A DNA stretch of 64,000 nt from Halorussus amylolyticus (lineage in GTDB: Archaea > Halobacteriota > Halobacteria > Halobacteriales > Haladaptataceae): assembly GCF_004143485.2 (NCBI RefSeq), contig NZ_ML974131.1, forward strand, positions 335,749-399,748, written 5' to 3'. Every line of letters begins with the position of its first letter. Position 1 is the first letter of the stretch. The notes beneath the pieces were generated by a model. The model was not told the origin of the DNA. It searched no databases and was given only the letters and a program-made list of their open reading frames with translations. Below, in pieces: positions 36,137 to 52,491 of this stretch. Made by a program: the position numbers and the translations under genes.

Positions 36137-36753
36137 GACTCGACCTCCGTGGTGTCTTCTTCGGCGCTCATTGCGACTTCGTCGTTCGATTCGACGCCCG
36201 CCACCCGAGCGACGGCGTCGGCGGCCCGGCGGAGTCGGAACTGGTGGACCGACTCGGTGCTGAACGCGAGTCGAAGTTTCGACCGGAACGGCGGGTTCGG
36301 AGCGTCGTCGCCGCCGAGGAACGCCGCGGCGTGCACGTCGTCGGTCCACGTTCCGGCGTCGATTCGCTCGCGGGCGTCCTCTCGCGAGCAGTTCTCGGCG
36401 TGCGCGACCGCCGACACCGCGGCGTCGAGCAGCGCGTCGCGGAGGTCGGCCCGCTCGCGGATGGTGGTCCGGCGGGGTCCCGACCGCATCCTCGCGACTC
36501 GCTCGTCGAACTCGGCTCCCGGCGTCGGCATCGTCTCGACGGTCTCCACGTCGGGGGTCTCCGCGCCGCGAATCTCGCTGGTGCGCCGGGACTGCGCGAT
36601 TCGAACCCCCTGCACGAGCGCGAGCGCGCCGATGAGGAGGACCGCGGCGTAGTCGGCGGAGATTGCTGTCGCGAGACTCGGCTGGACTACCATCAGCACG
36701 CCGAGCGCGACCGCGACGACACCGATTCCGGTCAGAATCGGGCGGGTACTCAC
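36133..36753 (-). CDS. Membrane protein of the DUF58 operon (DUF7269-like)
   Basis: 206 residues from a GTG start at 36753. Two hydrophobic helices near the N-terminus (about 7-50) are followed by a long, soluble, helical and acidic C-terminal domain with a possible coiled-coil (ERADLRDALLDAAVSAVAHAENCSREDARERI). The start and the stop both overlap neighbours by GTGA. I recall DUF7269 for this position in haloarchaeal operons (from memory). Function unknown. Confidence 0.75.
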   Translation of the reverse strand: MSTRPILTGIGVVAVALGVLMVVQPSLATAISADYAAVLLIGALALVQGVRIAQSRRTSEIRGAETPDVETVETMPTPGAEFDERVARMRSGPRRTTIRERADLRDALLDAAVSAVAHAENCSREDARERIDAGTWTDDVHAAAFLGGDDAPNPPFRSKLRLAFSTESVHQFRLRRAADAVARVAGVESNDEVAMSAEEDTTEVES

Positions 36754-37733
36754 GGCTCGCCTCCTTGGTCGCGTTCGTCGCGCCTCGTCTCGCCGTCCAC
36801 GTCGGCGTACTCGGCTTCGATGTTCCGGAGCGCGTCGAGCGCCCGGCGCTCGCGGTCGTCGGTCGCCGATTCGCCGCCGTACCTGACCTCCTCGAACAGC
36901 GCGGTGAGTTCGGCAACGTCTTCGCGCGCCATCCCGGCATCGACCGCGGCGGCCGCGAACTCCGCGGGCGTGCTCGATTCGGGGTTCGACACGTCGAGGT
37001 GACGGGTCATCTCGTGCCACGCGCGGTACACCTCGTTCGCCACGTCGGTCGCGTCCTCGATTCGGTCGGCGGCCGCGCCCGCCGCACGTCCGACCGCGGC
37101 CACGTCCTCGTCCGCGTCGGGTTCGAACACTTCCTCGGGGTCGTCGGGGTCGGTGCCGCTCGACGAGACGAACAGGAGCGCGACCGCCGCGACGAGTGCG
37201 ACCCCGAGACCGAGCAGGAGCAGGACCGACGGGTCGGTCAGCGTCGTTCCCGACCCCGACCCGGCCGCGCCGCTCCCGCCCGGGGGGAGCGAACTGTTGT
37301 TCGACCCGATCAGTCCAGCGGTTAGCTCCCCGGGACCGGGGTCCGAGCAGAGCGTGAGGAGCGCGTGAGCGAACGCGACCGGGAGCCCAACCGGACCGAC
37401 GTAGGCCACGAAGCCGAGGCCGCCGAATCGTCGGTAGGCGAGGGCCGCCCCGAGCAGGAACACCGCCAGTATGAGTCCGATAGCCCACAGTTCGTCGAGG
37501 ACGGGGTAACACGGCAGGTCAATTGGGACCGACGCTGCGGCGTCAGAGCTGTTCCCGATGCTCGCTCCGGTGTCGCTACTGTTCGACGCTCCGGTCCCCG
37601 TCTGGGGGTCGCCGACGCCGAAGCCGCCGCCCGAGTCGGTCTCGACCGTCGAGTTCAGGGTGGCCGCGGCGGCCCCGAGCGCGAGTACGCAGAGGAGCGC
37701 GAGGACGACCGGACGGAGTTTGTCGCTGTCCAC
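36750..37733 (-). CDS. DUF4129-domain membrane protein, first gene of the DUF58 operon
   Basis: 327 residues from a GTG start at 37733. An N-terminal signal-like helix (VVLALLCVLALGAAAATL) is followed by a Ser/Gly-rich extracellular stretch, two spans near 88-120, another near 168-190, and a cytosolic DUF4129 region (YRAWHEMTRHLDVSNPESSTPAEF ... LTALFEEVRYGGE). DUF4129 is transglutaminase-associated and common in DUF58/MoxR loci. A TATA-like AAGTTATC lies about 26 nt upstream (37753-37762), so this gene heads the four-gene transcript. Confidence 0.85.
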   Translation of the reverse strand: MDSDKLRPVVLALLCVLALGAAAATLNSTVETDSGGGFGVGDPQTGTGASNSSDTGASIGNSSDAAASVPIDLPCYPVLDELWAIGLILAVFLLGAALAYRRFGGLGFVAYVGPVGLPVAFAHALLTLCSDPGPGELTAGLIGSNNSSLPPGGSGAAGSGSGTTLTDPSVLLLLGLGVALVAAVALLFVSSSGTDPDDPEEVFEPDADEDVAAVGRAAGAAADRIEDATDVANEVYRAWHEMTRHLDVSNPESSTPAEFAAAAVDAGMAREDVAELTALFEEVRYGGESATDDRERRALDALRNIEAEYADVDGETRRDERDQGGEP

Positions 37734-37868
37734 ACGGGTAGGTAGCGCGATTGATAACTTAGAAGTTCGGTCTTCCGGTCACACTCTCGTGGTTCCGAGG
37801 CCGATGGCCGACTCTCCGAAGCCATCGCCAACTGTTCCGATATCTTTCCGCACTATAAATCGAAAACA

Positions 37869-37880
37869 TTTATATATTTT
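37869..37880 (+). promoter_or_regulatory. TATA box of the lanthipeptide precursor gene
   Basis: TTTATATATTTT, centred about 29 nt before the ATG at 37902. This is the classic haloarchaeal spacing for a leaderless message. Two other ATGs (37888, 37897) share a different frame that is an antisense shadow of the LanM gene. Confidence 0.7.
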
Positions 37881-37901
37881 GAAGCGCATGATTCTCATGC
37901 A

Positions 37902-38021
37902 ATGTCACGTGATACCATCACAGCCGTCGAAGCGGAGTACGAACCAGAAACCGACGAGCCGAAACCGGAATCGTCGTCGCACAGGGGTACGTGCGTCCAC
38001 GGTTCGCTGGCGTGTATGTAG
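37902..38021 (+). CDS. Candidate class II lanthipeptide precursor peptide
   Basis: 39 residues. An acidic leader (about 1-23, MSRDTITAVEAEYEPETDEP) is followed by a short core, SSSHRGTCVHGSLACM, with two Cys (31, 38) and Ser/Thr at 24-26, 30 and 35 that LanM could dehydrate and cyclise. It is too short for routine gene calling. It is convergent with the LanM gene, 39 bases from its stop, and has its own strong TATA box. Third codon positions are G/C-rich. No GG or GA leader-peptidase motif is seen, and no LanT transporter is nearby. Proof needs expression or mass spectrometry. Confidence 0.72.
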   Translation: MSRDTITAVEAEYEPETDEPKPESSSHRGTCVHGSLACM

Positions 38022-38060
38022 CGTCGGTCCAAAACTGAATTTTTCACCGTCTTCGAAACG

Positions 38061-41000
38061 CTACTCTAATCGCGTCACGTTCGGAATCTCGCAGTCGCGT
38101 TCTCGCGCGTCGAGCGAGAGCGCGACGTACCCGAGACCCGTCAGCCCGGTGAACAGGCCGAACTTCGGAAGCAGCGGGAGGTGGTTCGCGAGTCGGAACC
38201 GCCCCTCGCGTTCGGCTCTATCGAGCGTGTTCTCGAACAGTTCTTCGCCGCGTTCCGTGAGCGACTCGTCTTCGAGCACGTCGCCAGCGTCCAGCAGAAA
38301 GAGCGCCCGACCGGCGGACCCACAACACAGCGAGTCTTCCTGACTCAACTCCGGTCGAAGGCTCTCCCGGAGGACCGAGAAGTCCCCGACCGATTGCATT
38401 CCGGCGTCAGCAACGCCTACGCGACTGGTTCCGACGCCAGCGGTGCCGTTGCACCACCCCCAGACGGTTCCGGTGTGACTCCCCGATTCGCCGGTGCCTT
38501 CGTCGTCGGCGTCGCTCTCGCGCTGCCAGAGGTAGGTGTCGAACCGAAGCGCGTCCCGCCCGACGCGAGCGTACGCCTCGTCGTCGGTCACGCCTCCGAG
38601 TTTCGAGAGCGCGTAGCCGATACCCCCGGCGCCGTGTGCGAACGCGAACCGCGTCTCCGTCTCCTCGCTCGTCGGGACTTGAAACCCCGCCGACGTTTCG
38701 CTCGTCGCTTCGAGCAGGCGGTCGCCACACCAGCGCGCCCGTCTGAGCGCACCCCGGTCGCCGGTCCGCTCGTACACCGCTAACTGCGCGAGCAGTTCGC
38801 CCGCCGAACCGCCCATCACGTCGAGCGCGACGTCCTCGGCGATTTCGTCCGCGGAGGTCCGATTCGCTACCTCGCGCGCGCTCTCTACGAGGCCGGCGTC
38901 ACCGAGTAGTTCACCTGCGGTCACCAGCGCGTAGGCGACCGACCCCGTTCCGGTCACACCGCCGATTCGAAGCGTTTCGGCTCGGTCGGTTTCGTTCTCG
39001 AACGCCTCTCGAACGGACTGCAACACGCGTCTGCTACGCTCGGCCAGTCGGTCGTCGTCGTACACCGCGGCCGCGGCCGCGAGAAACACGCCGACCCCGG
39101 CGTACCCCTCGTAGAGACCGAGTCCGGGTTCACGCGGGAGTACGTGGTCCGTCGGCGACGAACGCGCGAACTCCGCCCACCGGAGACTCCCGTCCGAGTA
39201 CCGCGTCGCCGTCTCGTCCAACAAGTCCGCAATCGCCGAGACGAACTCCCGCGGCGAATCCGCGTCGGACACCGACCGTGAGGGTCCCTCCGACGGCGGG
39301 GAAACGGGGTCGGACACTTGCGAATCGGTTAACGTGAGGTCGATGAGCCGCAACTGCGTCTCGACCTGGTGTGCGTCGAGAGACGAGATTCGCCGGGATG
39401 CGTGTTCGACCGGCGAGTCGTCCGTGAACACGCCCTGCGGATTCCCGCGACCGTCTCTCAGTTCGCGCCCGGTCGCCTCGGCGGTAAACCGCGGGACGAT
39501 ACCGTCCAAGAGCGCCGCCTTCTCGCACGTCACGAGGTCCGATAGTCCCGGGTTCTCGGCGTCCGAAACGAACTGCTCGTAGAGCGACTCCATCGTCAGC
39601 GACTGGCGTACTCCCGACCGGAGCCGAGAAGCGTATCGACGCTCGGCGAGTAGCGACGCGTACGCACCCGTCGGGCGGACGAGATACCGTATCTCGGTGC
39701 CTTCGAAGGCGGCGAGCGGCCCGTCCGGGCTCGCCAGTTCGTCGCGGTGGTCCAGAACTGCCGCCATCACGTCGCGGAATCCGCGTTTCAACGGGGCGAG
39801 ATACTCCGATACCCCCCGGACCTCACCGTCGAGGCGAGGGAGGTTCTCACCGTCGAAGTGGTACACCTTATCGAACGTGATGTCCATCGCGTCCGTGTTC
39901 GGTCTCCGGAAGTTGGGTCGCTTCGTCTCCCGCGTCTCGTTCGTCAGCTCGCTGAGTCCGCTGGTCATGAGCTCGTGATTGTCCGCGCCGGTGTGCTTCG
40001 AAAACGGAACGAGAAGCGTATCGAGTATCGAGCCTTCGATGAACGACGATACCGCAGGTGACGCCGAGGACGGGCGTTCGAATCGCGGAGAGAGTATCGT
40101 CTCTAGGTCCACGAGTACCGGGGTCTCGCCCACCGCGACGATGTTCTCGTGGTGCAGGTCGGTCGAGCCGAGTGCGAATCCCAACGCGCTCAGTTCGCCC
40201 ATCCGCCTGTAGTATCGCTCGACTTGGTCCGAACGCTCACACGGCTGCTGTGACAGATGCTCCATCCACCCGTAGCTTCCTCTGTCGAGAACCGTCGGCG
40301 CGTAGAGGTCCGGACCCTCCGTGCGTTCGTTCGTCCACCCGAGCAGTCGATTGAACGCGACTGCCGCCCCGACCGACCGCGGTTTGTAGACGACCGAACA
40401 GTCGTCGGCGAATCGAACCGCGAACACGATTTCGCCGTCGCCGTGCGAGTCTTCCGACAGCGGTTCCACGTCGGCCACCGGCCCGAGTTCGGTCCCGTCG
40501 TTGAACGTCCGTTCGAGCGCGGCCCTGTCGGCAGAGATACGCTTCCGAAGACGCTCGGCCGACCGCCGCCACTGGTCGGTGACGACTCCGAGGAGTCTCA
40601 GCAGTACCGGGTACGTCTCGAAGATTCGCTCGTAGTCGGTCTCGCGGTGTTCCGCGACGAACTCCTCGTACACTGCGGTCGAGTCGGTCGCTTCCGAGAA
40701 GTCCGTCTCGGGGTATGCCGTGCGCTGATACGCTTTGAACAGGACGAACAGGGGATGACGGAAGACCTGGCTCAGACGCTCGAACAGGCAGTTTTCGAGC
40801 GACTCGACCGCCGACCGCTCGAAGTCGCCTTCGAGTTCGAGACCGGCGGCTCCGGCCTCGACCAACGGGGCGAGCAGGTGGACGAACGCGCGACCTTCGT
40901 GTCGGTCTCGGAGGGCTTCGGTGTCCCCAGCGTCCGGCGAAACCGCGCGGTCTACGACTCGCTCTGCGGTTTCGAACGCCGACGGAATCGATTCGGGTTC

Positions 41001-41222
41001 TTCGCCTCCGGTCTCGAACTGCTCGCGGACGCTCGCGACGGTGTGGCCCGAGAGCGAGAGGCGCTCGCGAAACGCGTCTTCGGAGTCGAACACGTCGGAC
41101 CAGTCGCCAATCGTCGATTCGGTGCCGTGGTCTGCTGGAAGTGCTGTGTTCTCGTCCGGGTCTAAAACGGTGCTCAACGGGTGCGAACGAGCGACGCAAT
41201 CGGCGAGGAGCGTCTGGCGCAT
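38061..41222 (-). CDS. lanM: Class II lanthipeptide synthetase LanM
   Basis: 1053 residues. It dehydrates Ser/Thr in a precursor peptide and forms lanthionine rings with Cys. The N-terminal dehydratase (DUF4135) region shows SVVYKPRSVGAAVAFN near 280 and STDLHHENIVAVGETPVLVDLE near 360. The C-terminal LanC-like cyclase (about 690-1053) shows FAHGAGGIGYAL, WGWCNGTAGVG and LCCGSAGRALF. The zinc ligands are then Cys924, Cys966 and Cys967, the three-Cys 'CCG' type also seen in ProcM, which is linked to broad substrate use. A minus-strand TATA-like TTAAATTATC about 28 nt upstream makes the message leaderless. Confidence 0.95.
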   Translation of the reverse strand: MRQTLLADCVARSHPLSTVLDPDENTALPADHGTESTIGDWSDVFDSEDAFRERLSLSGHTVASVREQFETGGEEPESIPSAFETAERVVDRAVSPDAGDTEALRDRHEGRAFVHLLAPLVEAGAAGLELEGDFERSAVESLENCLFERLSQVFRHPLFVLFKAYQRTAYPETDFSEATDSTAVYEEFVAEHRETDYERIFETYPVLLRLLGVVTDQWRRSAERLRKRISADRAALERTFNDGTELGPVADVEPLSEDSHGDGEIVFAVRFADDCSVVYKPRSVGAAVAFNRLLGWTNERTEGPDLYAPTVLDRGSYGWMEHLSQQPCERSDQVERYYRRMGELSALGFALGSTDLHHENIVAVGETPVLVDLETILSPRFERPSSASPAVSSFIEGSILDTLLVPFSKHTGADNHELMTSGLSELTNETRETKRPNFRRPNTDAMDITFDKVYHFDGENLPRLDGEVRGVSEYLAPLKRGFRDVMAAVLDHRDELASPDGPLAAFEGTEIRYLVRPTGAYASLLAERRYASRLRSGVRQSLTMESLYEQFVSDAENPGLSDLVTCEKAALLDGIVPRFTAEATGRELRDGRGNPQGVFTDDSPVEHASRRISSLDAHQVETQLRLIDLTLTDSQVSDPVSPPSEGPSRSVSDADSPREFVSAIADLLDETATRYSDGSLRWAEFARSSPTDHVLPREPGLGLYEGYAGVGVFLAAAAAVYDDDRLAERSRRVLQSVREAFENETDRAETLRIGGVTGTGSVAYALVTAGELLGDAGLVESAREVANRTSADEIAEDVALDVMGGSAGELLAQLAVYERTGDRGALRRARWCGDRLLEATSETSAGFQVPTSEETETRFAFAHGAGGIGYALSKLGGVTDDEAYARVGRDALRFDTYLWQRESDADDEGTGESGSHTGTVWGWCNGTAGVGTSRVGVADAGMQSVGDFSVLRESLRPELSQEDSLCCGSAGRALFLLDAGDVLEDESLTERGEELFENTLDRAEREGRFRLANHLPLLPKFGLFTGLTGLGYVALSLDARERDCEIPNVTRLE

Positions 41223-41245
41223 GGCTCTTCCGATAGTGATTCTAT

Positions 41246-41303
41246 GATAATTTAAGCGTTTTGCACCCCGGCCACTTCGTTGTATTACTAAAATTTAAGT
41301 AAA
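41246..41303. promoter_or_regulatory. Divergent promoters of lanM and the pilus ATPase gene
   Basis: Minus strand: TTAAATTATC (41255-41246), about 28 nt before the lanM ATG at 41222. Plus strand: TTTAAGTAAA (41294-41303), about 27 nt before the ATG at 41325. Both suit leaderless transcripts. The 102-base gap is AT-rich compared with the genes on either side. Confidence 0.6.
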
Positions 41304-41324: not shown

Positions 41325-43565
41325 ATGGCCGAGACCTCGACCGCGAGCGACACGCCGCTCGACACTTCCGACACGCCGCGCGTCCCGCCGCCACTCCCGC
41401 CCGACGACCCCGACGCGTGGTACGCCCCCCGCGTCCGCGACCAGACCGAACTCCACCCCGACGTGGTCGCCACCATCCGCGAGACCGACGACGGTTTCGA
41501 CTACCTCGTCCGCGAACCGTTTCTCTCGCCCGCGGGCGACGACGCGCTCGCTCGTGTCGAAGACCACTTCTCGACCGCGAATCTCGCCCGGCCGCTCACC
41601 CGCGAGGGCGCGACCGAGCGCATGGCGGCCGGATTCGACGCGAAGTACCGGCGCATCGTGGACCGACTCACCGACCTCCCGCCCGGCGCGCGCAGGCGAG
41701 TCGAGTACTACGCGCTCCGGAATCTGCGGTGTCTCGGCGACCTCACGCCGCTCGCGCTCGACGACGGCATCGAAGTCGCCGACACCGCGAGCGAGAATCT
41801 GGTGGTCCACACCGACGACTACGCGCCCGCCGACACCGACCTTCCGGCCGACGCCGACTTTCTGGAGCGATTCGCGAGCGAACGCGTCGAGACCCACACC
41901 GTCGAATTCCGGACCTTCCGGATTCCGGTCGTGGTCTACCGCGAACACCTGCTGGCGAACGACTCGTTTACCACGAAGTACGCGGTCCAAGAACCCGACC
42001 TCCTGCCGGGCGACGAGGAACTGATTGCCGAGTGCAAGGACCGAATCTGGGAGACCAACGTTGACGGCGTAGTCGAAGACAGGGCGGGGTTCGTGCGTGA
42101 GCGCGCACGAACCTTCCTCTCGCGGCGGCTCACCGCGCGAAACACGCGGGCGTGGCTCGACGCCGCCGCCTATCGCGCCCGGACCGCGCTCGCGGAGTAC
42201 GATTTGGCGGTCCCGCCGGTCAATCACCGCTTCTCGACCGACCGGCTCTCGGACCTGGTGTACTACGTAATGCGAGACTTCGTGGGCCACGGCAAACTCA
42301 CGATACCGATACGCGACGACCTCCTCGAAGACATCGAGGCCAACCGAGTGGGCGAGCGCATCAAAGTAGTTCCGCGCGGGCGCGAAATCGGCCACGGCGA
42401 GCGCGTCCCGACGAACCTCGAATTCGAAGACGAGACCGAGTTCGTCAACGTCGTCACGCAGATGGCCGCCGCCGACGGCACCGAACTCAACGCTTCGAAT
42501 CCGAGCGCGAAGGTGAACCTCCGACCCGAGGGCGTGCCCGACGGCACGACCATCCGGTGTGCGGTTGCGCTCGGCGTTATCAGCGAGGACGGCCCCCACA
42601 TCTCGATTCGCAAGCAGGCCCCCGAAGCGATGACGCCCGTCGACCTGCTCGAATCGGGGAGCCTCTCGACCGAAATCGTGACCCTGCTCTGGCAGGCGTA
42701 CGAACACCACGGCGTCGTCCTCTACTCCGGACCGACCGGGGCCGGAAAGACCACCTTGATGAATGCGCATATGCCGTTCATCCCCTACCGCGACCGACCC
42801 ATCTCTATCGACGAAGGCTCGCGCGAGGTTCGGCTTCCACACGAAACGGGCGTCTCACTCACGACGCGCGACCACGAGAGCGACTACAAGCGTGTCACGA
42901 TGGCCGACCTCATGACCGAGTGCAATTACCTCAACCCGGACGTGGAGGTCATCGCCGAAATAAACACGCCCGCGAGTTTCGAGACCTTCGCCGAGACGCT
43001 CAACACCGGCCACGGCGTCATCGGCACCACACACGCCGAGGACGTTGAGAAGTTGGTGAATCGGGTGGTCGAGCAGGGCTTGCCGCCGTATCTCCTCCGG
43101 GAACTCGACCTCGTGGTGTTCCCTCGGCGAGTCGAGGGCGAACGCTACGTTGGCGAGGTGGTCGAACTCCTCACCGAATCGGAGTTCGAGAGTCTCGATT
43201 CGGAGCGCGCGCGGTGCGGTACGATTCGCAAAGACGACGCGACGGTGTACTGGAACACGGTCGCGTGGCGCGATACGCACGGAGAGTTTCATCTGGCGTC
43301 CGACCGTTCGGACGCGTCCGACCACCCGAACTCGGAGCGCGGAGGCGACGGGCGCGCCCGTCGCCTCCGCTTTTTCGACCGCCTCGCCGAGCGCACCGAC
43401 AGGACGGTGGCGGAGGTGGAAGCCGAGTTCCACCGGAAGCACCGGTACGTCCAGTATCTGGAGCGAGAGGGGATGGACGACTTCGAAGAACTGTTCGCGT
43501 TCCTCTCGGACTTGCAGACGAACGAGGCCGCGACGGTGGAGCGGGCGAAGCGGGAGAGTGTCTGA
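41325..43565 (+). CDS. Type IV pilus/TadA-like secretion ATPase (PilB type)
   Basis: 746 residues. A long N-terminal region (1-330) has a FWY-rich domain typical of archaeal PilB proteins. The ATPase core (about 400-620) has Walker A YSGPTGAGKTTLM, an Asp box near SIDEGSREVRLPHE, Walker B EVIAEINTPASFET, and a His box GHGVIGTTHAED. The C-terminus (about 640-746) has a Gly/Arg-rich linker that holds a 32-bp palindrome. It powers pilus assembly with the TadC-like protein at 44.9 kb. It is first in the pilus locus, which is interrupted before the next pilus gene. Confidence 0.92.
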   Translation: MAETSTASDTPLDTSDTPRVPPPLPPDDPDAWYAPRVRDQTELHPDVVATIRETDDGFDYLVREPFLSPAGDDALARVEDHFSTANLARPLTREGATERMAAGFDAKYRRIVDRLTDLPPGARRRVEYYALRNLRCLGDLTPLALDDGIEVADTASENLVVHTDDYAPADTDLPADADFLERFASERVETHTVEFRTFRIPVVVYREHLLANDSFTTKYAVQEPDLLPGDEELIAECKDRIWETNVDGVVEDRAGFVRERARTFLSRRLTARNTRAWLDAAAYRARTALAEYDLAVPPVNHRFSTDRLSDLVYYVMRDFVGHGKLTIPIRDDLLEDIEANRVGERIKVVPRGREIGHGERVPTNLEFEDETEFVNVVTQMAAADGTELNASNPSAKVNLRPEGVPDGTTIRCAVALGVISEDGPHISIRKQAPEAMTPVDLLESGSLSTEIVTLLWQAYEHHGVVLYSGPTGAGKTTLMNAHMPFIPYRDRPISIDEGSREVRLPHETGVSLTTRDHESDYKRVTMADLMTECNYLNPDVEVIAEINTPASFETFAETLNTGHGVIGTTHAEDVEKLVNRVVEQGLPPYLLRELDLVVFPRRVEGERYVGEVVELLTESEFESLDSERARCGTIRKDDATVYWNTVAWRDTHGEFHLASDRSDASDHPNSERGGDGRARRLRFFDRLAERTDRTVAEVEAEFHRKHRYVQYLEREGMDDFEELFAFLSDLQTNEAATVERAKRESV
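42088..42113. repeat. In-gene inverted repeat in the pilus ATPase
   Basis: GGTTCGTGCG (42088-42097), six-base spacer, CGCACGAACC (42104-42113). It lies inside the coding sequence of the pilus ATPase and codes for a Val-Arg-Glu-Arg-Ala-Arg segment. It is weaker than the other palindromes of the window. Confidence 0.6.
43339..43370. repeat. Perfect 32-bp palindrome inside the pilus ATPase gene
   Basis: GCGGAGGCGACGGGCG followed directly by its reverse complement, then TTTTT. It lies in the C-terminal linker (GGDGRARRLR). The shape is that of a transcript-end hairpin with a T-run, but inside a reading frame that continues for about 65 codons. The centre GGGCGCGCCC resembles the 34-bp palindrome at 22830. 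Confidence 0.9.
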
Positions 43566-43622
43566 AATCGGGTCCGACTCCGCAAATCATATTTTCCGAA
43601 CGCGAAAGAAACGACCACCGGA

Positions 43623-43973
43623 ATGAACCAAACGTCGCCGGAGACGACGGACACGCTCTGGACCGGAGTAGTGTCAATAGTTCTCGGTCTGAGCGCAATC
43701 GCCGTCTTCCTGTTCTACACCCCTTCGGACGAATCAGTCAACGGGACCGGTATCGTGTCCGGTGCGTTCCTCGTTCTCGCGGGAGTGCTTACGATGGTCG
43801 AACCGTTCGTGAATCCGTCCGAGCGGTGGGAGGCCGTCTTCTGGATAGCCGCCGGTCTGACCGTCGCCGGAGCCGCGATACTGTTCGCCCCGCGCAGACG
43901 CATCAACGGCGTCGTACTCGGGGTTGGGGTGGCACTCGTGGGGTGTCTTCGCTACTACGGCGTGTCGAACTAA
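43623..43973 (+). CDS. Small membrane protein inserted in the pilus locus
   Basis: 116 residues with four hydrophobic spans (about 14-32, 46-62, 70-88, 93-112). Polar residues lie in the loops. No family is recognised. It starts 57 bases after the pilus ATPase stop. In typical haloarchaeal loci the TadC-type gene follows the ATPase directly, so this gene and the next two look like an insertion. Confidence 0.6.
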   Translation: MNQTSPETTDTLWTGVVSIVLGLSAIAVFLFYTPSDESVNGTGIVSGAFLVLAGVLTMVEPFVNPSERWEAVFWIAAGLTVAGAAILFAPRRRINGVVLGVGVALVGCLRYYGVSN

Positions 43974-43999
43974 TCGTCCGGTGCGGCCCTGCTGAACTT

Positions 44000-44191
44000 T
44001 CAGTCGTTCGTCTCACTCCCCGGAAACGTACCGGCGAGGAAAATCCACGCGAGAGCCAGCGCACCAACCACGTCGATTCGATAGTACATCTCCGGCCGGA
44101 GAGGGCCTGAAGTTGCGATTGGCATACCCACCGCGAACGCTACGAGAAGACCGAGTGCGGCCGCCACTGCGTGCTTCGAATCCTCTTTCAT
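44000..44191 (-). CDS. Small two-span membrane protein
   Basis: 63 residues. Hydrophobic spans lie at about 8-28 and 42-58, with a charged N-terminus (MKEDSKH) and a short acidic tail. No family is recognised. It is on the opposite strand to both neighbours, which breaks up any pilus operon transcript. Upstream DNA (44192-44230) is AT-rich (TTTTTGTATTAAT). Confidence 0.5.
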   Translation of the reverse strand: MKEDSKHAVAAALGLLVAFAVGMPIATSGPLRPEMYYRIDVVGALALAWIFLAGTFPGSETND

Positions 44192-44384
44192 ACGTCGGAT
44201 ACAGCTTCGCTTTTTGTATTAATTTCCGACGTGGTGGCTTCGAATACTCCTCTCCTGTACCGATTTCGACCTCTGCTATTCTCGGCTAGCAACGACGTTA
44301 CCGACGCCCATCTCGTACCCTCCGAACGAGCTATTCTGGAGGCATTCATAAAAGAATTAAACTTTTCGAGCGCAATTCGAACGC

Positions 44385-44747
44385 ATGCCTCTCCGTTCGA
44401 AGGTCGGGTCGATACTGGCGTTTCTCGGTAGCCTCCTTCTCGGGGGCGCGACGGCGCAATATTACGACGAACTCTGGGTCGGGATACTCGCCACGGCGCT
44501 GCTGGGCGTCGTCTCGGTCGGGTTCGTGCAGTTTCCTCGTCTCCTCGGACGAACTGTTTTCAGTGGTCGAAGCGGTTGGCAGTCCGTATTCGGTGTTCTC
44601 ACAGTTCTCGTCCTGTTCACACCGCAGGAGTCAGATATCTTCGCGACCGACTACATGTATGCGAAAATGCTGTTTCTCTGGGGAGTCCTCGTCTGTGGCG
44701 TCGTCGTCGGAATCAGTATCGGGCGAGCCACCAACACGGGCGAGTGA
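44385..44747 (+). CDS. Small membrane protein inserted in the pilus locus
   Basis: 120 residues with three or four hydrophobic spans (about 7-22, 31-48, 67-82, 92-112). No family is recognised. An AT-rich AAAAGAATTAAACTT lies about 27 nt upstream (44350-44364), which suits its own leaderless promoter. It is probably not co-transcribed with the pilus ATPase. Confidence 0.6.
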   Translation: MPLRSKVGSILAFLGSLLLGGATAQYYDELWVGILATALLGVVSVGFVQFPRLLGRTVFSGRSGWQSVFGVLTVLVLFTPQESDIFATDYMYAKMLFLWGVLVCGVVVGISIGRATNTGE

Positions 44748-44820
44748 GCGTCTCCGTTGTGGAAGACTAGCGGGCAGTGAGTATTCTGTACTCTCTCAAT
44801 CACGAATATAATTCCTTTAT

Positions 44821-44880
44821 TTTAAATATAAAAACGAACGAACTCGCGTTATGAACGCTACTCGGAGGACCGGACGGTGA
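44821..44880 (+). promoter_or_regulatory. TATA box, nine-codon leader ORF and SD in front of the TadC-type gene
   Basis: An AT-rich TATA box (TTTAAATATAAAA, 44821-44833) lies about 27 nt before an ATG at 44851. That ATG opens a nine-codon ORF (MNATRRTGR) whose TGA overlaps the GTG start of the pilus gene (GTGA at 44877-44880). A GGAGG at 44864-44868 lies 8 nt before the GTG. Translation of the pilus gene may be coupled to the leader ORF. Confidence 0.5.
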
Positions 44881-46775
44881 ACACGGCGGTTAACTCGAAC
44901 TCGGTCCGCCCGCTTTCGGTCCTCGACCGCGCGCTCTACGCCATCTTCTCGCGCCACGCCGACAGCACCCGCCACGACGCCGACCGCAAGCGCTACCGCG
45001 CGACCACCGTGACCGCGAGCTTCGACGTGTACCTCTCCAGAACGTACGGCCTGTCGTGGGTCGCGTTCGCGCTCGTCGGCGTCTGGTCGTTTGCGGTTGT
45101 CGCCGCGGTTCCCGACACCACGCTCGGCGCGGTCGCGGCGTTCGTCCGCAGAGGCGTCCCCGGTCTCGAAGTCGTCGGCTTCCCGGCGGTTTCGCGGTCC
45201 GCGACGGCCGTCGTCTTGGGAGGCGCAGTCGGACTCGCCGCGAAACGCGCCACTGTCGCGCTCGGGAGTCTCTACCTCAAGTGGGCCGCGAGCGCCCGCC
45301 AGTCGAACATCGAGCGCACCCTGCCCGGCGCGGTCCGGTATCTCCACGCGCTCGCGTCGGGGAGCGACGACGGCGCGGCGATGCTCCGGAAGGTCGCCGA
45401 CCGCGAGGAGGCCTACGGCGAGACCGCGGTCGCGTTCCGGAAGGCCCTCAACAAGGCGACCCTCACCGGAAGCCTCGGCGAGGGGCTTCGAATCGTCGCG
45501 CGCGATACGCCCTCGCGGGACGCGCTCGCTCCGTTCCTCGTGAAGTTCCGCGAGCACGCCGAGCAGGGACCCGACGCGCTGGCTCAGTACCTCCAGATGG
45601 AGAGCCGAATGCTGAGTCATCGCCAGTCCCGGACTCGCGAGCAGGCGGGCGACTTCCTCGAACTCATCGCGGAGATGTTCATCGTCCTGCTCGTGATGCC
45701 CGCCCTGCTGGTCATCGTGCTGACGGTGATGAGCGTCCTCGCGCCCGGACTGAGCGAACCGGTCGCGACGCCGCTCGGCACCACCTCGACTCGCGGGCTT
45801 CTGGTCTACGGGAGCGCGGTGTTCATCCTCGTCGTCGGCGCGGGCGCGGCGATGCTGGTCGAGACGCTCCGACCGCCCGACCAGTCCGGGCGCGGATACG
45901 ACCGACCGCCGGGTCTCCTCGAGACGCTCGCCACGTCGCTCCACAACCCCGCGAGCGCGACGGGCGCGTTCGCGCCCGTCGCGCTCGCGTTCGGCGGACT
46001 TCTCCGGCGAGTCGGCTACGGACCGGTGGACGTGGCGCTTCTGAGCTACGTCGCGTTCGCGCTCCCGGTCGGACTGGTCGCGCTCCGGCGGGCCAACCTC
46101 GACGACGCGAAGGACCGCGAAATCAAGGACTTCGTTCACGCCGTCTCGGGCCACGTCAGCCTCGGCCGACCGTTCTCGGAAGCCGTCGAGCGGGTCGCCC
46201 GAGACGTTGACCTCGGTGCGCTGAACCCCGACGTGGCCGACCTCGCGTTCAACGCGAACCTGACCACCCGCGAGGGAGAGCTCCGGGCCGACGCGCTCTC
46301 GCGGTTCGTCGGCCGGGTCGGCACGCCGCTCGCCGACCAGACCATCGGTCTCGTGACGGGCGCGCTCGACTCGGGCGGCGACGCCGAGGCGGTCTTCGAG
46401 ACGCTACAGGTCGAAATCGGGAGACTGTACCACGAGCGAAAGGCGCTCCGTTCGAACATGCTCGTCTACGTCGCGGTCGGGTGGACGACCGCCCTGCTCG
46501 TGGTCGCCATTATGGTCGCGGTCGATGGCTACGTCCTCGACAGTTTCTCGCAGTTGTCGTCGGTCTCGACCGCAGATTCGGGGATGGCGCTCGACCCCGA
46601 CGCGGTCGACCCCGCCCGCGATAGACACCGCTTCTACGTCGTGACCCAAGCCACGATGCTCGCCTGCGGGTGGTTCGCGGGGTACGCGAGCAGGGGTCGC
46701 TACGAGGCGCTGCTCCACTCGGCCGCGTTGGTCGCGGTCGCCCACTTCGTGTTCGCGGGGGTGGGGATGGTATGA
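44877..46775 (+). CDS. TadC/T2SSF-type pilus platform membrane protein
   Basis: 632 residues from a GTG start. Two T2SSF-like cytosolic helical domains (about 130-260 and 420-520) alternate with hydrophobic spans near 55-120, 265-315, 360-400 and 545-625. It is the membrane platform partner of the pilus ATPase. The stop overlaps the start of the next gene (ATGA), so it is translated with the pilin-like gene. An SD and a leader ORF are described at 44821-44880. Confidence 0.9.
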   Translation: MNTAVNSNSVRPLSVLDRALYAIFSRHADSTRHDADRKRYRATTVTASFDVYLSRTYGLSWVAFALVGVWSFAVVAAVPDTTLGAVAAFVRRGVPGLEVVGFPAVSRSATAVVLGGAVGLAAKRATVALGSLYLKWAASARQSNIERTLPGAVRYLHALASGSDDGAAMLRKVADREEAYGETAVAFRKALNKATLTGSLGEGLRIVARDTPSRDALAPFLVKFREHAEQGPDALAQYLQMESRMLSHRQSRTREQAGDFLELIAEMFIVLLVMPALLVIVLTVMSVLAPGLSEPVATPLGTTSTRGLLVYGSAVFILVVGAGAAMLVETLRPPDQSGRGYDRPPGLLETLATSLHNPASATGAFAPVALAFGGLLRRVGYGPVDVALLSYVAFALPVGLVALRRANLDDAKDREIKDFVHAVSGHVSLGRPFSEAVERVARDVDLGALNPDVADLAFNANLTTREGELRADALSRFVGRVGTPLADQTIGLVTGALDSGGDAEAVFETLQVEIGRLYHERKALRSNMLVYVAVGWTTALLVVAIMVAVDGYVLDSFSQLSSVSTADSGMALDPDAVDPARDRHRFYVVTQATMLACGWFAGYASRGRYEALLHSAALVAVAHFVFAGVGMV

Positions 46776-50791: not shown

Positions 50792-51580
50792 CTACAGGTC
50801 GCTTCGTTCGAATCGCTCCATCCCCGCGACGAGCGGCACGGCGAGCCACAGTACGAGCACCAGCACGCCGAACCACGCGGTCGTGTAGAACGCGTCGCCG
50901 GGGAGCGGCGTCCCCGAGACGAGTTCGCGGCCCGCCACCTGGAACGCGGTAATCGGATTCAGTTGATTGAACACCAGTGCCCACTCGGGCGTCGGTCCCT
51001 GCGGCGGCGAGAAGCCGTTGAGGACGTACCGCACCAGCCCCGGAAGCTGGCCCCACAGACCGAGAAACAGCAGGTACGTCCCGAACGCACCGACCGCGGC
51101 CCTGTTGGTGGTGCGGACGCTCGCGGAGAGTCCGACCGCGAAGCTCACTATCGACGCCCCGAGGAGCACGCCGAGCGCCCACGCAACTGCGAGCGGGCCA
51201 ATTTCGGGGACTCCCCCGCCGACGAGCGAGACGAGCGCGGCCGCGACGAACCCGGCGGTCACGAGCAGCGCCATCACGACCGCGCGACCGATTGCGGTTC
51301 CGACGACGACCTCCCGGCGGGTGTGGGGGTACGACAGCACCACGCGCAGGCCGCCGTTCTGTCGGCTCTGAGCCACCGACTGGTAGCCGACCGCGAGCGC
51401 GACCAGCGGGACGAAGAACGCGACGAGACCGACGAGCGCTCCGGCGAGCGCCCCCGACTGAGACGAGGTGAGGTAGCCCGCCACCCCGAACAGCACGACG
51501 AACACCCCGAGGTGGACCCACAGCGATCGCGAGCGGTACGGGTCGCGGGCGTTTCGCTCGGCGACGATGCGCCAGCTCAT
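50792..51580 (-). CDS. ABC-2 type transporter permease
   Basis: 262 residues from the ATG at 51580 (MSWRIVAERNARDPYRSRSLW). Six hydrophobic spans and the NosY-like layout (SYPHTRREVVVGTAIGRAVVMALLV) point to an ABC-2 exporter permease. The start overlaps the ATPase stop (ATGA). Substrate unknown. The gene ends 16 bases from the displaced pilus gene stop, tail to tail. Confidence 0.88.
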   Translation of the reverse strand: MSWRIVAERNARDPYRSRSLWVHLGVFVVLFGVAGYLTSSQSGALAGALVGLVAFFVPLVALAVGYQSVAQSRQNGGLRVVLSYPHTRREVVVGTAIGRAVVMALLVTAGFVAAALVSLVGGGVPEIGPLAVAWALGVLLGASIVSFAVGLSASVRTTNRAAVGAFGTYLLFLGLWGQLPGLVRYVLNGFSPPQGPTPEWALVFNQLNPITAFQVAGRELVSGTPLPGDAFYTTAWFGVLVLVLWLAVPLVAGMERFERSDL

Positions 51581-52491
51581 GCTCGTTCCTCCGTGTAGGC
51601 CGCGAACAGGTCGTCGAGTGACGCGTCGCTCGTCTCGATGTCGAGGACGGTCGCGCCGTCGCCCCGGAGCGCGTCCACGACCTCGACCTTTCGGTGGTCG
51701 GGACACGAAAGCGACACGGTGGTTCCGTCGCCGTCGAGCGAGACGTTCGACACGCCGCCGAGGTTCCGGACCTCGGCGAGAACGCCCTCGGGCGACCCGT
51801 CGAGCGTGACGGTCATGGTCGCTTTCGACCCGACCGCGTCCTGTAGCTCGTCGATGGTATCGACCGCGACGAGGTTGCCGTCGGCGAGGATGCCGACGCG
51901 GTCACAGACCGCCTCGACCTGCCCGAGGATGTGCGACGAGAAGAAGACGGTCGCGCCGCGGTCGGCCTCCTCGCGCACGATTTCGCGCATCCGACGCGCC
52001 CCGTTCGGGTCGAGTCCGGTCGAGGGTTCGTCCAGAATCAGGAGGTCGGGGTCGCCCGCGAGCGCCATTCCCAACAGGAGTCGCTGGGCCATCCCCTTCG
52101 AGAAGCCGCCGACCCGCCGGTCGAGCACGTCGCCGAGACCCACGCGGTCGAGAAGCGCCGCCGGGTCGTCGTCGGCGTCCTTCGAGTCGATGGCGAATTC
52201 GAGATGGTGGCGCGCGGTGAGGTGGCCGTCGAGGTGATAGCCGTCGGGAAGCACCCCGATTCGACGCCGGATTCGCTTGGCCTCCGATTGGGCGTCGAGA
52301 CCGAACACGCTGGCGCTCCCGCTGGTCGGCCTGAGGAAGTCGAGCACGATGTCGATAGTTGTCGATTTGCCTGCGCCGTTCGGGCCGAGGAAGCCGAACA
52401 CCTCGCCCGACTCGACGGTGAGGTCGACTCCGCGGAGTGCGACCACGTCGCCGAACCGCTTGTGGAGGGACCGTAGTTCGAGGGCGGTCAT
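51577..52491 (-). CDS. ABC transporter ATP-binding protein
   Basis: 304 residues. Walker A GPNGAGKSTT is near 40; the divergent signature FSKGMAQRLLLG and Walker B LLILDEPSTGLDP follow. A C-terminal extension of about 80 residues is DrrA/NatA-like. It is the partner of the permease at 50.8 kb. There is no peptidase or C39 domain, so it is not an obvious exporter for the lanthipeptide 10 kb away. Confidence 0.9.
   Translation of the reverse strand: MTALELRSLHKRFGDVVALRGVDLTVESGEVFGFLGPNGAGKSTTIDIVLDFLRPTSGSASVFGLDAQSEAKRIRRRIGVLPDGYHLDGHLTARHHLEFAIDSKDADDDPAALLDRVGLGDVLDRRVGGFSKGMAQRLLLGMALAGDPDLLILDEPSTGLDPNGARRMREIVREEADRGATVFFSSHILGQVEAVCDRVGILADGNLVAVDTIDELQDAVGSKATMTVTLDGSPEGVLAEVRNLGGVSNVSLDGDGTTVSLSCPDHRKVEVVDALRGDGATVLDIETSDASLDDLFAAYTEERA

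Follow-up and report, generated by a model that had tools for sequence, protein, structure and literature searches.

The best-described relative of the locus reported here is the pel system of Halorussus pelagicus RC-68. Pellan has been made from its precursor PelA in Haloferax volcanii, by heterologous expression combined with mass spectrometry, and is doubly dehydrated, with intertwined rings (PMC12144867). In this host, the pel genes led to higher motility, more rod-shaped cells and stronger archaellin (flgA1) expression (PMC12144867). Other class II lanthipeptides described from haloarchaea are archalans alpha, beta and gamma and further products of Halorussus (PMC10105419, PMC12144867). 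Here we analyze a locus in the window, i.e. the whole stretch of 64,000 nucleotides of Halorussus amylolyticus DNA under study, where a LanM gene and a 39-codon gene face each other. The two genes probably form a functional pel-type class II lanthipeptide cassette. The cassette type is already known through pellan; the precursor is what is new. The locus enlarges the small group of archaeal lanthipeptides by a putative, divergent product.

A LanM gene and a facing precursor gene

The features of the gene pair, in window coordinates, are as follows.

37902-38021, plus strand: precursor gene (PelA-type LanA), 39 codons, MSRDTITAVEAEYEPETDEPKPESSSHRGTCVHGSLACM; its homologs are convergent to orthologous LanMs in four other genomes
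37869-37876, plus strand: TATA box TTTATATA, at -33 from the precursor ATG
37902-37958, plus strand: conserved part of the leader, residues 1-19, MSRDTITAVEAEYEPETDE, with residues invariant across seven precursors
37983-38018, plus strand: predicted core RGTCVHGSLACM, residues 28-39, from alignment with PelA, the mature product starting at residue 28
38061-41222, minus strand: LanM, class II lanthipeptide synthetase, 1053 aa, with a CCG-type zinc site and a match to TIGR03897

The LanM gene has the coordinates, strand and length given in the first-pass annotation, and its reading frame contains zero internal stops over 1053 aa. The protein scores 655.6 bits against NCBIfam TIGR03897 (cut-off 304) and matches Pfam DUF4135 (PF13575) and LANC_like (PF05147), both above cut-off; it has the fused DUF4135 dehydratase and LanC-like cyclase of a class II LanM, and it is the sole LANC-like gene found in the genome. 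By alignment with the LicM2 and CylM structures, the dehydratase catalytic set of CylM, which we take to be K274, D347, H349, N352, D364, R506 and T512, is represented by K280, D355, H357, N360, D372, R512 and T518. These seven residues are invariant in five orthologs, as are the three zinc ligands Cys924, Cys966 and Cys967, which lie where they had previously been placed. LanM codon divergence is biased toward third positions (0.45-0.49 versus 0.23-0.30), suggesting long purifying selection. Judged by its residues, the enzyme is complete and its catalytic site intact.

The facing ORF was also as annotated, with 39 codons at 37902-38021 (plus strand), a C-terminal TCVHGSLACM, a strong TATA box, no leader GG motif, and 39 bases between its stop codon and that of LanM. 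The position of the TATA box suggests a nearly leaderless precursor transcript. Reading frames as short as 39 codons can arise by chance, and many unrelated frames of similar size are present. A leave-one-out profile, built from the six non-window precursors, retrieved the window ORF as top match (E = 0.0026), followed by a next-best match with E = 0.83 in the whole 3.78 Mb genome. The match begins exactly at the ATG of the ORF, which adjoins LanM. A homology-blind scan for acidic ORFs with at least two Cys near the C-terminus and a TATA-like element returned this ORF as the only candidate beside the window LanM. As in other LanAs, a short ORF beside lanM here carries a leader and a C-terminal core with Ser/Thr and Cys. 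The idea of a chance reading frame is already refuted by the leader and position; with orientation and promoter conserved as well, and with the profile match, it deserves almost no weight. The precursor gene is real.

Homologous gene pairs in other Halorussus genomes

Orthologs of the window LanM (58-60% identity) are present in four other Halorussus genomes, and each is paired with one or two convergent precursors. Across the family, homologous precursors are convergent to an orthologous LanM in 7/7 genes and 5/5 genomes. The first-pass annotation had proposed that the locus is of class II lanthipeptide type, its precursor being convergent, and had regarded lack of conservation of the short ORF beside other LanM genes as fatal to that proposal; homologs of the ORF lie beside the LanM in every one of these genomes, and the proposal holds. 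The precursors have a common leader, MSRDxTxSLExEYEPxxDE, and M1, E10, Y13, E14, P15, E19 and two Cys are invariant in all seven. Residues 1-19 are presumably the segment recognized by LanM. Each of the seven genes has a TATA-like element at -30 to -34, which is TTTAT-like in sequence (CTTAT in one). The Castro leader motif K.[YF][DE]..[FY], quoted as Kx(Y/F)(D/E)xx(F/Y) for haloarchaeal LanA leaders in PMC10105419, is absent from 7/7 pel-type precursors.

One of these genomes, G019, links the family to pellan. Its second precursor reads MSRSITTSLEAEYEPSHDETDDRAVIG-STGCYISDKPVCI-GSGKDDEMEF, and the core, STGCYISDKPVCI, is identical to the PelA core of H. pelagicus RC-68; G019 would thus appear to be H. 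pelagicus. Given this identity, the window locus is a pel-type cassette and not an isolated oddity. Its LanM is orthologous to (60% identical to) the one beside the precursor with the PelA core, its precursor has the common leader and is convergent, and the core residue order is Thr-Cys-Ser-Cys in both. On these comparisons, we class the window locus as pel-type and as the ortholog of the H. pelagicus pel system. The two differ in several respects. There are two precursors in pel and one in the window; the pel core is STGCYISDKPVCI, whereas that of the window is RGTCVHGSLACM; pel has an acidic C-terminal tail and a V-x-G before the core, both of which the window precursor lacks; and the window pair, unlike pel, lies directly between a DUF4129 gene and a pilus ATPase gene.

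The archalans and the other Halorussus class II lanthipeptides resemble the window system in having a class II LanM, short precursors, a haloarchaeal host and no bacterial-type GG leader. However, LanMs from elsewhere in the genus and family share only ∼30-35% identity with the window LanM, which groups with its orthologs and apart from other haloarchaeal LanMs. Away from pel-type loci, a search across 392 genomes of the order gave none but borderline matches to the precursor family, those in other genera being weak (E 0.003-0.01). When the named genome collection was scanned with only the window LanM as query, zero relatives emerged; an alignment-based scan of the same collection yielded one, in Halorussus halobius HD8-83. 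No pel-type LanM was found on plasmids, where the best LanMs are ∼30% identical. Three further Halorussus LanM loci (L010, L019, L029) have candidate precursors with the leader VExEYxHxDHxVPDE and cores such as MYSFEHCC; these leaders resemble the pel leader VEAEYEP, though the corresponding LanMs are only about one-third identical.

CCG-type zinc ligands are a feature of the permissive ProcM group, and the earlier annotation had raised the use of many precursors in the manner of ProcM, the bacterial enzyme of the prochlorosins. The window LanM might then mainly modify other, unrecognized precursors elsewhere in the genome, the adjacent short gene being one of several or incidental. Both the zinc ligands and the intact active site would fit such an enzyme. 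However, the search of the genome for precursors of pel type (unrelated leaders being outside its scope) recovered one, with no second precursor carrying a pel-type leader, and the LanMs of the relatives are paired with just one or two adjacent precursors. The likeness to ProcM lies in the three-Cys zinc site; the window LanM is of the archaeal branch, and many scattered precursors were not found for it. We regard this explanation as very improbable.

The convergent arrangement had been described as unusual. This is true among haloarchaeal LanM loci: in a crude scan covering 18 other LanM loci from the same genus and family, candidate precursors were seen at ∼11, on the LanM strand in all but one. 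Within the pel clade, on the other hand, convergence is the norm, and hence it can be viewed as a trait of that clade. The earlier annotation had suggested that antisense overlap of the two 3' ends could regulate expression; this is speculative, as the genes merely have their 3' ends facing across 39 bases. The gap contains the following feature.

38018-38064, no strand assigned: inverted repeat GTAGCGT/ACGCTAC, bridging the interval from one stop codon to the other (z = -1.98)

This hairpin folds only modestly better than shuffles, and it might just as well serve as a shared terminator, though tentatively so. We rejected it as a conserved terminator, as it is weak in the window and its sequence is not common to the relatives.

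The part of the window precursor predicted to form the product

Leader length is unchanged in the window precursor, and its Cys31 is also residue 31 in most relatives. V25-x-G27, invariant before the core in the other six precursors, is replaced by S-S-H. The core spacing, [ST]-x-C-x2-S-x4-C exactly in 5/6 relatives, is T-C-x3-S-x2-C in the window, and the predicted second ring is shorter. The relatives continue into an acidic tail of 10-11 residues ending in F, where the window precursor has an in-frame TAG. The stop follows Cys-Met, at the point where mature pellan ends (Cys-Ile). Thus spacing, V-x-G and F-ending tail all deviate from the pel-type core, a term that has no published definition and is used here for the features seen in the other precursors. 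By product sequence, the window precursor is a divergent member of the family. As the departure falls in the product-forming part, it counts against the reading of the locus as a functional pel-type cassette.

These same changes would be expected if the precursor were decaying, i.e. if a nonsense change after codon 39 had cut off the tail and the cleavage motif had drifted, such that no mature product is formed while LanM is still intact. Loss of a motif invariant in the six other precursors and of the tail, the TAG where relatives read on, and the single precursor copy left in the window genome are all in line with this. Yet the leader, both Cys, the promoter and the convergent position have been kept; the leader has its original length and Cys31 its place; the ORF ends at the residue matching the end of mature pellan; and LanM, which is intact, would be expected to degrade too. 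At such divergence, codon-position counts do not tell constraint on the precursor from drift. On balance we find decay unlikely, though it is the main competing explanation, and favor a functional cassette.

Because the residues run Thr, Cys, Ser, Cys, the term 'intertwined' as applied to pellan can only mean nested rings. The wording of PMC12144867 points to Thr2-Cys12 and Cys4-Ser7. By analogy, the rings of the window product are most likely nested as well, joining Thr30 to Cys38 and Cys31 to Ser35. Sequential rings (Ser26/Thr30-Cys31 and Ser35-Cys38), suggested earlier from the window alone, seem less likely than this pellan-like arrangement.

If the cassette functions in this way, the precursor gene would be transcribed from its own TATA promoter into a nearly leaderless mRNA encoding the 39-residue precursor. 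LanM would bind the conserved N-terminal leader (approximately residues 1-19); its kinase-like domain would dehydrate Thr30 and Ser35, and its CCG-zinc cyclase domain would close two thioether rings with Cys31 and Cys38. A host protease encoded outside the cassette would then remove the leader, probably near residue 27-29; the alignment with PelA suggests that the core begins at residue 28. Trimming at the C-terminus would be unnecessary, because the precursor ends where mature pellan ends. The product would be exported by machinery encoded elsewhere, and would probably act as pellan does, or else as a mild antagonist of other haloarchaea. The tail-less precursor offers a natural test of the role of the acidic tail and V-x-G in pellan maturation.

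Extent of the cassette and its surroundings

The cassette and its neighbors have the following coordinates in the window.

37776-41284, no strand assigned: two-gene cassette, interrupting the homology to the LanM-free site of sister genome G018; limits good to some tens of bases
36750-37733, minus strand: DUF4129 protein, left neighbor, kept in the genus with or without LanM
41325-43565, plus strand: FlaI/TadA-like secretion/pilus ATPase, right neighbor, in 15/18 Halorussus genomes with or without LanM

Homology between G018 and the window breaks off at 37775 and returns at 41285. G018 has its DUF4129 and FlaI/TadA-like ATPase genes in divergent orientation, ∼275 bases apart, with no LanM. This empty site indicates that the cassette consists of just the precursor and LanM pair, from which it follows that transport and proteolysis must be supplied by the host. 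From their distribution, the DUF4129 and pilus ATPase genes lie outside the lanthipeptide system. The FlaI/TadA-like ATPase and a TadC-like membrane protein are encoded beside the cassette (41325-46775); this neighborhood is ancestral in the genus, whether LanM is present or not, although the pel cluster stimulates motility in the test host.

In G019, G024 and G014, the LanM-precursor pair follows hydantoinase genes in the same region, and in G022 it is on the other side of the ATPase gene. Hydantoinase genes and an ABC pair occupy the same place in LanM-free genomes, and hence are not part of the system. A role as dedicated exporter was considered for the ABC transporter pair that adjoins LanM in G019 and G024; this was rejected, as six genomes without a pel-type LanM have the same pair in the same place. 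The window ABC pair (50795-52491) is a paralog, 9.6 kb away, with 58% identity for the ATPase.

In the LanM tree, G022 is joined with G014, whereas trees of two neighbor genes (ATPase and DUF58) place the window next to G022. Identity between genomes is 58-60% for LanM versus 85-90% for the ATPase. This conflict and the low LanM identity suggest, with moderate support, that the cassette has been exchanged horizontally or has moved repeatedly within a hotspot; alternatively, some genomes may have lost it and LanM may have evolved fast. A more speculative extension, which we hold to be doubtful, is that of a mobile, minimal two-gene cassette with a precursor that has lost both its C-terminal tail and the former cleavage site, with maturation by a proteolytic route unlike that of pellan and a different nested ring pair, and with motility signaling kept.

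Several minor features were noted at LanM loci of these and other genomes. In G024 (L061:3144-3326; C1:479146-479325), a 61-aa fragment of a LanM N-terminus (39% identity) is flanked by the genes for the pilus ATPase and a Tat-signal protein; the intact pel-type LanM is 6 kb away. The fragment is probably left over from an earlier copy in this region. In G022 (L060:12600-13540), the 5' end of the TadC-like gene is duplicated next to the pel cassette (116 bp, 96% identical), and the duplicates flank a minus-strand ORF, small and Cys-rich, that has a twin-arginine-like signal. Finally, LanM is split in several haloarchaea, with the DUF4135 dehydratase and LanC-like cyclase in adjacent reading frames (G012 C1:219495-222223, in L014 and L021; G026 C6:144939-147853, in L020 and L025; G219 C1:288991-291791), which could be due to gene fission, frameshifts or decay.
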